Of a DNA stretch of 55,653 nt, positions 16,507 to 55,653 are shown piece by piece. Under the pieces are notes generated by a model, which saw only the letters and a list, made by a program, of their open reading frames with translations, was not told the origin of the DNA and did no database searches. This stretch comes from an uncultured Microcaldota archaeon (lineage in GTDB: Archaea; Micrarchaeota; Micrarchaeia; Anstonellales; Bilamarchaeaceae): the NCBI GenBank assembly GCA_903828955.1, contig CAIKOA010000025.1:1-55653 (forward strand), in the 5' to 3' direction. A program made the position numbers and the translations under genes. Numbering within the stretch: position 1 is the stretch's first letter; the number at the start of each line of letters is the position of its first letter.

Positions 16507-16551
16507 ATGTCTGCCCGTACAATGGCCAATCTCGATTACACCTTCATTGCG
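16507..16551 (+). pseudogene. Duplicated 5' fragment of NFACT gene
   Basis: Fifteen codons here read MSARTMANLDYTFIA, against MPQRTMANLDYSYIS at the start of the NFACT gene 279 bp downstream. RTMANLDY is identical, yet most third codon positions differ, so this is not a recent copy or an assembly echo. Similarity ends at about 16551 and four hairpins follow at once. The frame stays open to TAG at 16698 (63 codons) and could be expressed from the TATA-like element. The rest of the 16335-16785 gap shows no gene. Confidence 0.6.
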
Positions 16552-16559
16552 AGCCCTTC

Positions 16560-16646
16560 AGGGGGAGCGCCCCCTAAAGACATTTGGGCGACGGCCCAAA
16601 ATTCTGCAACTAAAGTTGCAGATGCTTCATCGTGCCACCAAGGCAC
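16560..16646. repeat. Array of four consecutive perfect hairpins
   Basis: Four perfect stem-loops follow one another in 87 bp: 16560-16575 (6 bp, loop AGCG), 16583-16600 (7 bp, loop GACG), 16603-16622 (8 bp, loop TAAA) and 16632-16646 (5 bp, loop ACCAA). Gaps between them are 2-9 nt. The stems are unrelated in sequence, so this is not duplication of one palindrome. It could be a structured RNA or the trace of a hairpin-forming mobile element. Confidence 0.85.
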
Positions 16647-16785
16647 TGGAATGCAACGAATATTATGCGATAATTCCCTTTCCTTCTGCACATACTAGGT
16701 GGCCTTGGCGGCGCGACACCCCCAGCAACCCCCCATTCTGTGCAATAGCTAAACCTATTTAATTTGTCTTAACCAACCTTTTCTC

Positions 16786-19946: not shown

Positions 19947-19991
19947 CTTTACACCCTTCTAGAATTGCGCAGTAAAAGAATAAAAGCCCAT

Positions 19992-20017
19992 CCTTTTCTT
20001 TTTGAAAAAAGAAAAGG
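19992..20017. repeat. 11-bp perfect hairpin
   Basis: CCTTTTCTTTT (19992-20002) pairs with AAAAGAAAAGG (20007-20017) across the loop TGAA. It is the first element of the hairpin-rich gap 19947-20362. Read on the minus strand it lies in the leader or promoter region of the 302-aa gene. Confidence 0.85.
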
Positions 20018-20021
20018 CTGG

Positions 20022-20076
20022 TCACAGTGGGTGGCTCTTACAGGAGCAGGGGATGGGCACGAGCCACACACTGTGA
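20022..20076. repeat. 8+7 bp hairpin with one mismatch, 23-nt loop
   Basis: TCACAGTG/CACTGTGA (8 bp) and GTGGCTC/GAGCCAC (7 bp) are separated by a single G-A mismatch and close a 23-nt loop (20038-20060). Part of the loop, GGATGGGC at 20051-20058, is complementary to GCCCATCC at 19986-19993 upstream, so two alternative folds are possible. The hairpin at 48621-48677 has the same plan. Confidence 0.8.
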
Positions 20077-20208
20077 GGTCGGACCCAAAAGAAAAACAGG
20101 ATCCAGATATCACTTAGGAAGCACACGCGCAAAAGGGTGTTCAAAGTGTTTCAAAGTCTGAGGAGGTGAGAAGACTGGGGGAGGGTCAGGATTAACCTAA
20201 AACTGGGG

Positions 20209-20297
20209 TCGCATTGAGTAGCAAATGTTCTGGTATCACTTGCCCGCTTTCAGCGGGGTTTGCTACTCGATGCGAGGAGGGGGTTTTTACCCCCTCC
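20209..20297. repeat. Long branched hairpin followed directly by a second hairpin
   Basis: TCGCAT (20209-20214) and GAGTAGCAAA (20216-20225) pair with TTTGCTACTC (20259-20268) and ATGCGA (20270-20275), with a T-G wobble between them: 17 pairs. The loop holds an inner CCCGC/GCGGG hairpin (20243-20257). At the very next base a second stem begins: GGAGGGGG (20276-20283) with CCCCCTCC (20290-20297). The contiguity suggests one folded transcript or a DNA element. Confidence 0.85.
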
Positions 20298-20318
20298 GCG
20301 GTTTGGATTGCCGGTTGT

Positions 20319-20362
20319 TTTGAGCTTCGCTCAAAGCCCGTCTTTTTTTGCAGGCAAAAAAA
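20319..20362. repeat. Two hairpins abutting the tRNA-Leu 3' end
   Basis: TTTGAGC/GCTCAAA (20319-20335, loop TTC) is followed by TTTTTTTG/CAAAAAAA (20343-20362, loop CAGG). The second ends exactly one base before the tRNA discriminator. Its minus-strand T run can serve as the tRNA terminator. Confidence 0.8.
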
Positions 20363-20482
20363 TGCCGGGGGCAGGATTTGAACCTGCGTAGGCACTAAGC
20401 CACCAGATAGCGCATTCCGCGCCGATATTGATCGGGCGCAGTATCTTGAGTCTGGCGCGTTTGGCCGCTCCGCCACCCCGGC
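20363..20482 (-). tRNA. tRNA-Leu (anticodon CAA) with 36-nt intron
   Basis: On the minus strand: acceptor GCCGGGG/CCCCGGC, anticodon stem CCAGA/TCTGG, a long class II variable arm (GGC/GCC stem) and T arm GCAGG/CCTGC with loop TTCAAAT. The anticodon CAA (20446-20448) decodes TTG. An intron of 36 nt, 20409-20444, interrupts the loop after position 37, the canonical archaeal site. It can fold its own stem (ATCGGCGC against GCGCCCGAT with one bulged base). CCA is not encoded. Confidence 0.92.
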
Positions 20483-20517
20483 TCCCGTTTTTGGCTTCCT
20501 GAATACCCACGCCAAAT

Positions 20518-20604
20518 ACCGTTTTGGCTTACTGCTTTCCTACGGCAAAACGGTTATCCAAAACCCTTAGATGTTCCGTCTGCCATTTTTGGGTATCCAA
20601 AAAT
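20518..20604. repeat. Two hairpins and a diverged direct repeat
   Basis: ACCGTTTTG/CAAAACGGT (20518-20554, 9 bp) and ATTTTTGG/CCAAAAAT (20585-20604, 8 bp, loop GTAT). The segments 20551-20570 and 20591-20610 also repeat directly (both contain TATCCAAAA then CCTTAG) with a 40-bp period. This is the upstream part of the gene-free stretch 20483-21021. Confidence 0.75.
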
Positions 20605-20658
20605 CCTTAGGGGTTCTTCCTATTTCTTCGCTATTCTTTATCCGTCTTTGCCTTGTTT

Positions 20659-20749
20659 GGTGGCGGGCTTTTGCGCGAACACGCGCAAAAACAACCGCCA
20701 CCCCGGCAAACTTTTTTGTCCTTCTGAACACATACTGGCAAAAAAGTTT
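20659..20749. repeat. 17-bp nested hairpin followed by 11-bp hairpin
   Basis: GGTGGCGG/CCGCCACC (20659-20666, 20695-20702) encloses TTTTGCGCG/CGCGCAAAA (20669-20677, 20682-20690, loop AACA). Five bases on, AAACTTTTTTG/CAAAAAAGTTT (20708-20718, 20739-20749) forms the next stem. Every base of the outer and inner stems pairs. Confidence 0.88.
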
Positions 20750-20781
20750 ATTAAAAACCATCCGGTTTTCCTTTCTTTGCC

Positions 20782-20838
20782 ACTCTTTGCATATCTCCTG
20801 ACGCAGCCTTGGAAACTCTTTGAATATCCCCTTACGCA
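20782..20838. repeat. 24-bp direct repeats, 33-bp period
   Basis: 20782-20805 and 20815-20838 share 21 of 24 bases (both begin ACTCTTTG and end ACGCA). They sit between the 20708-20749 and 20844-20914 hairpins. Short phased repeats of this kind are seen at protein-binding arrays; no function can be assigned. Confidence 0.75.
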
Positions 20839-20843
20839 CTATT

Positions 20844-20914
20844 CCGGGCCGTGGGCTTTCTTTTGCTTCGCAAGGTTAATAATGTTATTTTCATTATTAA
20901 CGCCCAAAACCCGG
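20844..20914. repeat. Nested three-tier inverted repeat
   Basis: CCGGG/CCCGG (20844-20848, 20910-20914) encloses GGGC/GCCC (20853-20856, 20902-20905), which encloses TTAATAATG/CATTATTAA (20876-20884, 20892-20900). It is the last element of the array before the PRC-barrel promoter. Confidence 0.75.
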
Positions 20915-20979
20915 CCAATCCCCGGCAAACCTCTTTTCCCGGAGCGATTTCCCATCTTTCCGAAGAAACGGGCACACCT

Positions 20980-50641: not shown

Positions 50642-53600
50642 ATGAAAGGGCAGTCAAAGCTGTGGTCAATACTAATCCCCATATTTTTCCTTCTTACCCT
50701 AGCAGGAAGCTTCAGCGATGAAGTAAGGCACTCCCTTGCCGCAGCCGAAGAAGTGGGGGGCAGCTGGACGATAGTAAATATTGAAAACGCATTCGGCAAC
50801 CAGAGCGGAACTCCGGAGAACTCTTCAGGCAGCCAGATTGTTCCCATTGACCAGATTGCAAATGCCTCAGGAAACCTGCTCCAGCTTGTTTCAGATTCCG
50901 GCGGCGGGGGCGGCCAGAACAATTCCCAGGGAGAATTCAATGCAACCGATTCCGGTGAAGGCTGGAACGTCGTTCCAATAGAGGATGTGGTTTCCGGAAA
51001 TGAAACTCCTTCCAGAGAAGCCCCAAATATAAATGTAAGCGATAATGGAAAAGGAAACAACAAAGGCGCATGCGAAAGGCTCGGCCTTGAGAATGCATAC
51101 TGCTCTGAAAAAGAAGAGACGCTCCTGATTCAGAATATCGCAAACAAAGAGCTCTCCCTCGGCACCGTTTACATAAATTATACGGAAACCGTGAAAACCA
51201 AGGACAAGATAGAACTGAAAAAAATCAATACAAAACTGCTTTTCCAGAACGTCACCGAAGTCACGATGAAGGATTCCTCCTTCAGGGGCGACGGGGGCAC
51301 AATCTACTTCAGGGAGCTCAAAATCCACTCCGTAAAAGAGCAGAGGGACATCTCGCCTGCGTTAACTATCCAGCAGAACCTCATCGGAGTGGACACCTCG
51401 ACTTATCCGGATCTCGACCAGCCCGCGCACATAGAATTCTACAACATCCACGGAATCAGGAACGCATATCCGCTCCGGAACGGCGAGCCCTGCGGCGCCT
51501 ATTGCTCCAATTTCACCTATGACCCAGGTACGGGAATCGCTTCAATGGAAGTTTCCGGCTTTTCCAACTACTCGGTTGAAGGAGTAAACGTGACGAGCGT
51601 CCTTCACCTCGCTTCCGACTACACTTTCATCTCTGATATTACCGAATACGTAAAAGACCATGACGACAACTGGTCCGAGCAGATTCCGGTGGGGGATTTC
51701 GTCCGCGCAACATTCGAGCAGAACCTTTCCAACGGCAGGGTAATCGATGTTTATGCGCGCAAGGGAGGCGCTTCAAATGTTTATTTCAACGTCTACAAAA
51801 ACGGAACGACATCCCCGCTCCTTGGGACTTCCGAAGCCCTTGATTCAACCGGAGGCTGGCAGTACATAACATTGGAAAACCTCACAGGGGAAGCCGATAC
51901 ATTTGATTTCAAGATAATGGGGGATTCCGGAGGATATGCGGAATTCGACTACATCCACGATGCAGGCGTAGGGAGCTGCCAGGCAATCACCTCGGCAGGA
52001 GATTATTGGCTTACCAGCGACCTCTCAGGGGCGCCCACCAGCGCAGCCCCAACCATTGCAAAAGCCTGCATAGTTATTGGCGGTGAAAACATCCTCCTTG
52101 ACTGCAACGGGCACAAGATAAGCAACAACGGAACCTCCAACTCATATGGAATATTCCTCAACGCAAGCGCGAAAAACGCGACCCTCAGGAACTGCTCCTC
52201 AATTCTCAACTATACTTATGGAGTTGGAACATACGGCACCTCTTCCGATCCGGCTGAAGAAATCGTAATCTCCAATGTGACCGTAATCAACAACTCGAAA
52301 TACGGATTCTACATGAACTATGCAAAAAACGTTACAATCAGCGGCAGCACCGCAATGGGGAACTATTCGCAGAACGAAAGTGACAACATAGCGGGCTTCT
52401 ACCTTCTCAGCAGCTACAACAACACCATCGAGAACAGCAGCGCCTACGGAAACACGGTTGATTTCTACCTTAAAATCAGCGAGAACAACACCCTCTTCAA
52501 CAACGATGCATATGACGCGTACGACTCAGGGATATACCTTACCTCTGCTAATGGAAACAATCTCACCGGAAACCGCGTCTACAACAACACCGCCCACGAC
52601 AACACCCGCGGCATCTACCTCTACTCCAGCTCCAACAAAAACAACCTCTTCAACAACACCGCCTATAGCAACTCACAAGGCTTACGCCTCGACTCCAGCT
52701 CCAGCAACAACCTCTCCAACAACACCCTCTACAACAACTTCTACGGCTTCTACCTCTACTCCAGCACCAAAAACACCTTCACCAACAACACCGCCTACAA
52801 CAACTCCTACGGCTTCTTTCTCTACTACGACTCCAATTACAACTCCATCTTCAACAACACCGCCTACAACAACACCCACGGCTTCCACTTCGTCTCCAGC
52901 TCAAATTACAACAACCTCTCCAACAATACCGCCTACGACAACTCCTTCGGCTTCTCAATCCGCGACAGCTCCAGCAACAACCTCTCCAACAACACCGCCT
53001 ACGGCAACACCCTCGGCTTCTACATCTACCAATACGCCTACGGCAACAACCTCTTCAATAACACCGCCTATGGCAACACCGAAGGCTTCCACATCGACTT
53101 AGGCTCCTACAACAATGCCCTCTTCAACGACAGCGCCTACGGCAACACCCTCGGCTTCTCCATAGAGTCCTCCAGCTATAACAACAACCTCTACAACAAC
53201 AGCGCCCACGACAACAACATCGGATTCTCCATAGAGTCCTCCAGCTCCAACAACGCCCTCTTTAACAACACCGCCTACAGCAACTCCTACTACGGCTTCC
53301 ACCTCTACGACTACTCCAGCCGCAACAACCTCTCCGACAACAGCGCCTACAACAACAGCGGCGGCTTCCGCCTCGAATCCTCAGATTACAACACCTTCTC
53401 CAACAACACCGCCTACAACAACAGCGAGGGCTTCCACATAGAATCCTCTGATTACAACAACCTCTTCAATAACACCGCCTTCAACAACCTGGAATATGGA
53501 TTCAATATCGACATGTCCAACGCCACAAACCTCGCCGACTGCCGCGCCTACAACAACACATATGGCGAACTCCGCGCCATGACAGACTCAATCACGCGCA

Positions 53601-55653
53601 CTTTCTACGCATCCAACCTCACCATAGACAACCCCTATGGCAACATGCAGAATTACACAGTGCTCAACATAACCGACAATATGCAAAATGAGGATTACCT
53701 TATAGGGTGGGTCGCCCACGCATCCGGGCTGCCCGCAGAACGCTTCTCATTCGCCCAGAAATTCATCAACATAAGCCCGCTCTCCGGAACCCCGTCAATA
53801 GACGAGATAACATGGAGCTGGGACGAGAGCGAGCTTGGCCCAGAATATAACGAATCCAAGTTCGAGCTCTGGAAATACAACGGCACCTGGAAAAGGCTCA
53901 ACAGCACCCCGGACACCGGTGCGCACACGCTTTCCCTCTATGACCTTGCTCCGGCAAGCGACTACGGGATACTCCAGAACAATGAAACCAACTGCCCGGT
54001 CATCTCCTCCCCCGGCTTATATGCCCAGTCCAGTAACTACGCGGGCGCGCCGAATGAGGTCTCCATATCCGGCGGGGACGTCAGCAAGGCATGCGTGGTA
54101 ATCGCCTCTTCCAATGTGGACTTCAGCTGCGGCGGCTTCAGCATCACCAACAACGGCACTTCGAACGCGGCAGGGATCCTAATAAGTAATTCCTCAGACG
54201 GGCAGATATACACCAACATTACGGTGCATGATTGCCCTGGCGTTGGCGGGTACAAGAGGGGCGTCTATCTTCACTACTCTGAAAACGAGACGCTCAGGAA
54301 CATCACTTCGAGCGGAGCAACCACCGGCTTCTACATATATTACTCCAAGTACAACAACCTGACCGGCAACACCGCTTACAACACCTCACGCGGCATCTTC
54401 CTCTACTCCAGCAGCGGCAACCGCCTCACCAACAACAGCGCCTACAACAACTCCGATACCGGCTTCTACATATATTCCAGCGCAAGCTGCACCCTCGCCA
54501 ACAACACGGCATACGGAAACTCCAACTACGGGATTTTCCTTTCCTCTGCCAACAGCTGCAATCTTAGCCGCAACACCGCCTACAACAACTCGAGATACGG
54601 CCTCTACATCTACCTCTCCAACTCCGCCAACGCAACCAACACCCACCTCTACAACAACGGCTATGACCTGTATGTGGAGCCGGGCTCATCAGCCAGAAAC
54701 GTATACCTTTACAACCTCACAATAGACAACCCGGAAGGGGATATGGCGAACTATACCTCGCTCAACATAACCGATTCGGCAAATGCAAACGCCAATTATT
54801 CAATAAACTGGACCTCCAGCCCGGCAACGCTTCCCTCCGGCCGCATATCGTTCGCAGATAAGTTCGTAAACATAAGCGGCCAGGGCGGAACCACCTCAAT
54901 AGATTCCATAACATGGGCCTGGGCAGGCGAGAACCTGGCCGGCTACAATGAGTCCAGGTTCGAGCTCTGGAAATACAATGCTACAGACGGATGGGGCATG
55001 GCTGCCCTGAACGATTCCCCGGACCTTTCCGCGCACACCCTCAGCTTCTACGATCTGGACCCGGAGAGCGATTATGGAATCCTGGAGAACACTACCGGAG
55101 GGGAAAACTGCCCGCTGATAAACACATCTGGACCGTATAAGATGAAAGCAGACTATTCCGGAGCTCCCAACGAAATCTACCCCGACGCGGGGGATGCGAA
55201 CTATGCCTGCGTGGTAATCTCCGCTTCCGATGTCCTCTTCGACTGCAACGGCTTCAACATAACCAACAACGGAACAGATGCCGCGGTGGGGATCTACATA
55301 AACGGGTCCGCCGGTTCCCCGTTAACAAACGTTACCATACGCAACTGCCCTTCAATCGACGGATACACTGGTGCGGGGGTCTACCTTAACCGGGCGGAGA
55401 ACAGCCAGGTGGCCAATGCCTCAGCGGTAAATGGCCACTACGGCTTCGAGATTGCCTTTTCGAATTATAATCTTTTGTCAAACATAACCGCATACAGCAG
55501 CACCGAAGGAGGGATAGTGCTGGGTTACAGCAACCACAACAACATAACGGAAGCAGTCTCTAATGAAAATGACGGAAACGGCGTAGGGATTTTCTACAGT
55601 TCGTCCAATAACGCCCTTGAGAACAACACCGCCTACTCTAACGGCCAGGATGG
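50642..55653 (+). CDS. Giant secreted NosD-type beta-helix surface protein (3' truncated)
   Basis: One frame is open from ATG 50642 to the window end, at least 1670 residues. A signal peptide (KLWSILIPIFFLLTLAGSFS) starts it. An N-terminal region (to about residue 440) ends in a lectin-like domain (YIEFYNIHGIRN-type strands). Three large modules follow (from 51977, 53993 and 55109). Each opens with a Cys-containing cap (DCxGxxI), continues with NosD/parallel beta-helix repeats of about 22-24 residues (NNTAYNNSxGFYLYSSSxNN) and, in the first two, closes with an ELWKY domain. Many N-x-S/T sites suggest heavy glycosylation. A role in the cell surface or adhesion is inferred. NosD here means the fold, not copper handling. 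Confidence 0.88.
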   Translation, partial: MKGQSKLWSILIPIFFLLTLAGSFSDEVRHSLAAAEEVGGSWTIVNIENAFGNQSGTPENSSGSQIVPIDQIANASGNLLQLVSDSGGGGGQNNSQGEFNATDSGEGWNVVPIEDVVSGNETPSREAPNINVSDNGKGNNKGACERLGLENAYCSEKEETLLIQNIANKELSLGTVYINYTETVKTKDKIELKKINTKLLFQNVTEVTMKDSSFRGDGGTIYFRELKIHSVKEQRDISPALTIQQNLIGVDTSTYPDLDQPAHIEFYNIHGIRNAYPLRNGEPCGAYCSNFTYDPGTGIASMEVSGFSNYSVEGVNVTSVLHLASDYTFISDITEYVKDHDDNWSEQIPVGDFVRATFEQNLSNGRVIDVYARKGGASNVYFNVYKNGTTSPLLGTSEALDSTGGWQYITLENLTGEADTFDFKIMGDSGGYAEFDYIHDAGVGSCQAITSAGDYWLTSDLSGAPTSAAPTIAKACIVIGGENILLDCNGHKISNNGTSNSYGIFLNASAKNATLRNCSSILNYTYGVGTYGTSSDPAEEIVISNVTVINNSKYGFYMNYAKNVTISGSTAMGNYSQNESDNIAGFYLLSSYNNTIENSSAYGNTVDFYLKISENNTLFNNDAYDAYDSGIYLTSANGNNLTGNRVYNNTAHDNTRGIYLYSSSNKNNLFNNTAYSNSQGLRLDSSSSNNLSNNTLYNNFYGFYLYSSTKNTFTNNTAYNNSYGFFLYYDSNYNSIFNNTAYNNTHGFHFVSSSNYNNLSNNTAYDNSFGFSIRDSSSNNLSNNTAYGNTLGFYIYQYAYGNNLFNNTAYGNTEGFHIDLGSYNNALFNDSAYGNTLGFSIESSSYNNNLYNNSAHDNNIGFSIESSSSNNALFNNTAYSNSYYGFHLYDYSSRNNLSDNSAYNNSGGFRLESSDYNTFSNNTAYNNSEGFHIESSDYNNLFNNTAFNNLEYGFNIDMSNATNLADCRAYNNTYGELRAMTDSITRTFYASNLTIDNPYGNMQNYTVLNITDNMQNEDYLIGWVAHASGLPAERFSFAQKFINISPLSGTPSIDEITWSWDESELGPEYNESKFELWKYNGTWKRLNSTPDTGAHTLSLYDLAPASDYGILQNNETNCPVISSPGLYAQSSNYAGAPNEVSISGGDVSKACVVIASSNVDFSCGGFSITNNGTSNAAGILISNSSDGQIYTNITVHDCPGVGGYKRGVYLHYSENETLRNITSSGATTGFYIYYSKYNNLTGNTAYNTSRGIFLYSSSGNRLTNNSAYNNSDTGFYIYSSASCTLANNTAYGNSNYGIFLSSANSCNLSRNTAYNNSRYGLYIYLSNSANATNTHLYNNGYDLYVEPGSSARNVYLYNLTIDNPEGDMANYTSLNITDSANANANYSINWTSSPATLPSGRISFADKFVNISGQGGTTSIDSITWAWAGENLAGYNESRFELWKYNATDGWGMAALNDSPDLSAHTLSFYDLDPESDYGILENTTGGENCPLINTSGPYKMKADYSGAPNEIYPDAGDANYACVVISASDVLFDCNGFNITNNGTDAAVGIYINGSAGSPLTNVTIRNCPSIDGYTGAGVYLNRAENSQVANASAVNGHYGFEIAFSNYNLLSNITAYSSTEGGIVLGYSNHNNITEAVSNENDGNGVGIFYSSSNNALENNTAYSNGQD
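52570..53500 (+). repeat. Tandem beta-helix coding repeats, about 66-72 bp
   Basis: About 13-14 units recur with the core AACAACACCGCCTACAACAA followed by a GGCTTC-type segment and AACAACCTCTCC. They encode the rungs of the beta helix. Unit length varies by a few codons. The plus strand is extremely C/A-rich here, which leaves long frames open on other strands. Shorter runs of the same unit occur at about 54350-54620 and 55400-55650. Confidence 0.85.

Follow-up and report, generated by a model that had tools for sequence, protein, structure and literature searches.

The kilobase around tRNA-Leu(CAA) in a 55,653-bp contig of an uncultured Microcaldota archaeon (hereafter the window) consists of a patchwork of short dispersed elements, of which at least three are nested, and we consider it probable that short non-autonomous mobile elements accumulated around this gene, some within others. 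Three features were observed directly: the dispersal of the elements, their nesting with empty counterparts elsewhere, and their enrichment at tRNA genes. We also observed two of the families, A and B, across the order, found A inside tRNA genes with a BHB motif at its junctions, and detected long flanking repeats at some B copies.

Hairpin density and nested elements at the tRNA-Leu(CAA) locus

The tRNA-Leu(CAA) gene occupies 20363–20482 on the minus strand and contains an intron in its anticodon loop (Rfam RF00005, 48.6 bits; intron called by ARAGORN); the window also carries an archaeal SRP RNA. The host is assigned to Candidatus Micrarchaeota, since the closest relatives of the CDC48 protein, at 71–78% identity, come from MAGs bearing that name. 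The inverted repeats that a preliminary description had reported on both sides of the gene were recovered in the sequence at about the same positions. Non-overlapping perfect stems were counted in the region 19990–20920 and in its dinucleotide shuffles. At minimum stem lengths of 7, 8 and 10 bp the region gave 11, 10 and 4 stems, against 2.5±1.4, 0.9±0.9 and 0.03 in the shuffles. The preliminary description had argued that random DNA would not give such a density and had proposed comparisons with shuffled sequence and with other tRNA flanks as well as folding of both strands; shuffled DNA indeed yields far fewer perfect stems, 28 other tRNA-centred windows of the genome had a mean of 1.5 stems and a maximum of 4 against the 10 found here, and the minimum free energy of the kilobase corresponded to z-scores of −8.6 (plus strand) and −10.5 (minus strand) relative to shuffles. 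The second-densest places in the window had three stems, and the genome background for stems of at least 8 bp, measured on four other contigs in 377 windows of the same length (931 bp), had a mean of 0.64 and a maximum of 4.

With the kilobase as query, a search of the genome to which the window belongs (1.22 Mb in 35 contigs) returned 76 matches, and nearly all of its segments proved to be short dispersed repeats, representing at least five families (A, B, D, F with T, and H) in addition to hairpins built on copies of tRNA ends. The stems, previously described as unrelated in sequence, are so within the locus only, as most of them belong to repeated families genome-wide, and the hairpins at 20022–20076 and 20209–20275 are members of the same family (H). 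The exact abutting of some hairpins is explained by nesting of the elements. For the branched hairpin at 20844–20914, a single copy in the genome, the same search gave no convincing match elsewhere. Strong folding of both strands is what one long structured noncoding RNA across the region, as suggested in the preliminary description, would produce; however, its segments are dispersed independently of one another in other orders and orientations, four same-genus relatives carry different hairpins at their tRNA-Leu loci, and no Rfam match other than the tRNA was obtained even at a relaxed threshold, which leaves this explanation with a negligible probability.

Nesting is clearest where filled and empty copies of the same host element can be compared. 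Element A (19986–20114, plus strand; about 16 copies in the genome) comprises a U-rich/A-rich hairpin (19992–20017), a 13-nt second hairpin region and an A-rich tail, and is interrupted by H2, a 55-bp hairpin (20022–20076, plus strand) lying between a duplicated GG (20020–20021 and 20077–20078). Most other A copies of the genome are without H2; a second filled copy (C5:17158–17212) reads GGGCCGG-H2-GGTTCCCCC, with an insert of 55 bp, whereas the empty A copy at C8:40791 (GGGCCGGTTCCCCC) reads GGGCCGG/TTCCCCC. Element B (20177–20306, plus strand; GGGGGAGGGTCAGGATTAACCTAAAACTGGGG / GGAGGGGG..CCCCCTCCGCGGTTTGG; seven copies in the genome) is split by H3, a 67-bp hairpin with a 17-bp stem (20209–20275, plus strand) that has GG at 20207–20208 and at 20276–20277. 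Four B copies are empty of H3 (C8:36485, C8:40510, C32:64593 and C19:2287), so that CTGGGG-67 bp-GGAGGGGG in the window can be set against CTGGGG/AGGGGG at C8:40510. The comparison of filled with empty hosts of H2 and H3 therefore shows that H insertion adds GG. Family H has inverted repeats of 16–17 bp at its ends and at least eight dispersed copies, as is characteristic of MITEs, and the clean filled and empty pair at C5:17158 and C8:40791 displays the GG as a target-site duplication; the long direct repeats at some B copies, described below, are duplications of the same kind.

Nesting also involves element D, of which an older copy is split by an intact one (20513–20583, plus strand; hairpin 20518–20554 plus tail; six or more copies). 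The left half of the broken copy (CCCGTTTTTGGCTTCCTG...; a match to the D consensus) lies at 20484–20512 and its right part, including the hairpin 20585–20604 and 92% identical to the D tail in L017, at 20584–20640, both on the plus strand. Element F (20706–20770, plus strand; AAACTTTTTTGTCCTTCTG...TGGCAAAAAAGTTTATTAAAAACC; seven or more copies) has a covarying stem and is followed by element T, two tandem units of about 33 bp (CTTTGnnACTCTTTGnnnATCTCCTnACGC; 20771–20837, plus strand) that occur beside other elements genome-wide. A T-like block of one such unit of about 33 bp was assigned by eye at 20127–20158 on the minus strand; blocks of this kind usually lie on the tRNA-distal side of elements and elsewhere adjoin A, B, D, F and J.

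The A-rich tail of element A mirrors the right arm of the hairpin, with run lengths that track each other (3/5, 4/5, 3/6) in most copies, L036, L043, L150 and L158 among them; a DNA or RNA triplex was rejected as an account of A, as in T-loop introns nothing separates the mirror tail from the outer helix. In one subfamily of A a branched two-hairpin insert (TCTGAGAAAGC..TTCTTCCCTTGAGC..) replaces the hairpin loop and the right arm (C1:20505–20615 and C8:84132–84243 in G000; C24, C23 and C9 in G005).

Association with tRNA genes and copies of tRNA ends

The genome contains 43 element clusters. For 22 of them a tRNA gene is no more than 250 bp away, although these tRNA-flanking zones make up about 6% of the intergenic DNA and 2.2% of the genome. 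In five contigs, some of which were picked for carrying element matches, 10 of 20 clusters fell in tRNA zones amounting to 5.6% of intergenic DNA (P=3e-8). An element accompanies 26 of the 45 tRNA genes, and about half of the clusters lie away from tRNAs. The preliminary description had suggested, as one candidate, that hairpin elements of one family had gathered at a tRNA gene, which was essentially right, except that several families are present and some are nested; its other candidate, a protein-binding array for chromosome organisation, found no support because the elements track tRNA genes and other short RNAs.

Elements A, D and F usually sit 2–9 bp from tRNA 3' ends, mostly on the tRNA strand and with a T-run in the first arm. 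Eight A clusters adjoin the 3' end of a tRNA that shares their strand, D directly follows three tRNAs, and F adjoins three tRNA 3' ends (L018, L022 and C8:63011) and is also found 5' of two tRNA-Leu genes. When an element lies 3' of a tRNA, the T-run in its 5' arm may end tRNA transcription. The stems also covary: a U.G pair of the B stem is kept in 15 of 16 sequences and a CG-to-AU swap occurs in three, and covariation is seen at several pairs in the stems of D and F, which points to a folded single strand, either RNA or DNA, as what is recognised or maintained. Position, strand, T-runs and covariation would also fit the hairpins being mainly functional signals of tRNA 3' ends (bidirectional terminators or processing sites), kept by selection and spread by duplication. 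We regard this as unlikely: B, J and H are without T-runs, the D and F copies of the window occupy the upstream side, in the interval separating the tRNA from a divergent PRC-barrel gene, 19 of the 45 tRNAs do without any element, and A is an intron in relatives.

A further class of hairpins is built on copies of the ends of the tRNA itself. Just 3' of tRNA-Leu(CAA), the stretch 20310–20362 (minus strand) contains two alternating hairpins (20343–20362 and 20319–20335) and, after them, CCGGC at 20310–20314, which copies the 3' end of the tRNA. The same-genus genome G001 (L056) has a syntenic tRNA-Leu(CAA) with the same PRC-barrel neighbour and a tandem array with this arrangement, and tRNA-Leu(CAG) at C8:62231 shows the same 3' layout with its own cognate CCTGC. 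Upstream of the gene, a hairpin at 20652–20707 (minus strand) is formed by GCCGGGGTGGCGG folded with GCCCGCCACC, the former (20695–20707) being an exact 13-nt copy of the 5' end of tRNA-Leu(CAA) at 20470–20482. Upstream counterparts exist at tRNA-Leu(TAG) (L007) and tRNA-Leu(GAG) (L013), each of which has its own 5' end copied, and at L056 of G001. In L056 (1300–1660) and L007 (1590–1690), pairing of the copied 5' end can produce an acceptor-like stem of 7 bp (GCAAGGG...CCCTTGC and GCCGGAG...CCCCGGC upstream of tRNA-Leu) around a branched fold, resembling a pseudo-tRNA.

Fragments of tRNA 3' ends were also observed 80–180 bp downstream of intact tRNA-Arg and tRNA-Lys genes (L026, 1302–1500; L027, 1560–1823), with hairpin elements between the intact genes and the displaced fragments, an arrangement that resembles att duplication. 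Such fragments, together with the 13-nt 5' copy and the CCGGC 3' copies beside tRNA-Leu(CAA), the three tyrosine recombinases of the genome and the published description of an integrating element that disrupts a tRNA gene (PMC3293823), could suggest that the locus is the debris of repeated integration of a larger element, such as a virus or plasmid, at a tRNA att site, with the tRNA-end copies as att-like remnants. The duplicated units are, however, discrete families of 50–130 bp that also occur away from tRNAs, and T-loop introns would be left unaccounted for; we consider integration debris a very unlikely origin.

Element A in relatives and as a tRNA intron

Both A and B extend well beyond the genome of the window. 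A covariance model detected A in 36 of the 84 genomes of the order (E≤0.01); given the low complexity of this element, its weakest matches may have arisen by chance. The corresponding model for B detected it in 33 of the 84, with up to 28 copies per genome. A was also found in other orders of the class (E≤1e-5), for example between two tRNA-Val genes in L289. In several relatives A itself lies as an intron in a tRNA gene: in the T-loop of Leu(GAG) in G007, Leu(CAG) in G023, Leu(CAA) in G008, Phe(GAA) in G032 and Ile(GAT) in G027, and in the anticodon loop of Leu(CAG) in G047 and Arg(CCT) in G040. A lies within anticodon-loop introns in G037 and G039 as well, with less certain boundaries. A BHB motif, a 4-bp helix with 3-nt bulges, is present at both A junctions; the T-loop introns have a TTCA/TGAA or TTCA/TGGA helix with AAN bulges (G007, G023, G008, G032 and G027), and the anticodon-loop helices are CTCA/TGAG and CTCC/GGAG (G047 and G040). 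After excision of A in silico, ARAGORN called tRNA-Leu(CAG), Leu(GAG), Ile(GAT), Phe(GAA) and Arg(CCT). On the raw sequences the program missed or mis-called several of these tRNAs. The G008 tRNA-Leu, which carries A in the T-loop plus an anticodon-loop intron, was labelled Ser by ARAGORN. For annotation the missed calls mean that T-loop introns of the A family conceal tRNA genes from standard finders. The copy in the window lies about 250 bp downstream of tRNA-Leu(CAA) and not between exons, and is thus a dispersed copy rather than an intron at that site. In each of G000, G001 and G005, repeated GAAACTGGAGCTCTGA blocks flank one A copy; by eye, these blocks resemble halves of a C/D-box sRNA.

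Flanking sequences indicate how copies may have arrived. Upstream and downstream flanks were aligned for 28 B copies, with mismatched pairs as control, and 7 of the 28 pairs scored 18–27 against a control mean of 6.8 (sd 1.5). The direct repeats at some B copies are 18–37 bp long and include gene 3' ends (L222 and L282), the 5' end of a tRNA-Leu (L272) and a tRNA 3' end (L275). Those of A are smaller: 5 of 29 copies exceeded background, a number that includes three from a single sRNA-like locus common to them, and among the same 29 copies most of those in tRNA trailers had no flanking direct repeat. The elements would insert through a trans-acting activity that duplicates target sequence, and copies at or inside RNA genes may survive as the splicing endonuclease, RNase Z or RNase P strips them from the transcript. 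Among Micrarchaeota, the splicing endonuclease of ARMAN-2 is known to have broad specificity (PMC12397907). Removal of this kind suggests why tRNA flanks and introns gather selfish DNA, namely that it is discarded by RNA processing.

For A, a more specific but tentative reading is that of a mobile RNA element that exists either as a spliceable intron of the tRNA anticodon loop or T-loop or as a free repeat and that inserts with target duplication; its free-repeat state might correspond, again tentatively, to the copies in tRNA trailers and beside small-RNA genes. If this reading holds, the window presents an archaeal tRNA-intron family outside its intron state, in a niche common to other hairpin families. 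The occurrence of A as an intron in some genomes and as a dispersed repeat with filled and empty sites in others provides DNA-level evidence on tRNA-intron transposition.

Candidate movers and comparison with known systems

No transposase, integrase or reverse transcriptase was linked to any of the element families. The genome encodes one IS200-type TnpA, three tyrosine recombinases and one serine recombinase ORF. The IS200 TnpA is an unlikely mover, its ends and flanking hairpins differing from the elements, and, as judged against REP/RAYT systems, none of the families A–J was found beside the single Y1 transposase (C5:45418), where a contig end limits the view. An IS607 mover of the GG-flanked H elements likewise seems unlikely, as the serine recombinase ORF (192–208 aa) showed no obvious IS607 layout in the stretch read, and integron attC sites were dismissed: inspection by eye of D, F and the tRNA-end hairpins revealed no RYYYAAC/GTTRRRY cores, and the locus has no cassettes. 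In a different genome of the set, G033, 14 matches to IS200-type Y1 transposases were recorded, several of them at identical contig-end positions (L163 and other contigs).

REP/BIME, MITE and Neisseria-type mosaic repeats are short palindromic non-autonomous sequences that are intergenic and often arranged in mosaics, a likeness the present elements share. The elements differ from these in gathering at tRNA genes, and no partner transposase was found; in addition, A doubles as a spliceable intron, GG borders H, and repeats of 18–37 bp flank some B copies. The tyrT/rtT repeats of Escherichia coli also lie downstream of a tRNA gene and carry copies of its 3' end, as do the repeats 3' of the tRNA here; by comparison, the copies described here are 5–6 nt long and alternate with variable hairpins, and the 5' end is copied upstream as well.

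The closest known case is the transposition of BHB introns between tRNA genes in Thermoproteales (Fujishima et al. 2010, via PMC4090602), the mechanism of which was called unknown in a 2014 review (PMC4090602). Compared with those introns, A belongs to a different phylum, also occurs outside tRNA exons (in trailers, in a tRNA 5' flank and at an sRNA-like locus) and hosts nested hairpin insertions. In Caldiarchaeum, where tRNA genes have been disrupted, introns were gained and tRNA fragments lie scattered next to a putative mobile element (PMC3293823); that element is 1.8 kb long with a recombinase gene, whereas those here are non-coding and 50–130 bp. In the literature searched, with partial coverage, no account of these Micrarchaeota repeats was found. 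Two further observations concern other parts of the window: a tandem unit of about 50 bp (tagaaaaaggttgtgcaccctgtgcaggttgttttagaaactttt), repeated about three times, lies downstream of tRNA-Arg(GCG) at 530–660, and positions 16551–16736, 53073–54159 and 54322–55275 gave many further matches to sampled contigs.
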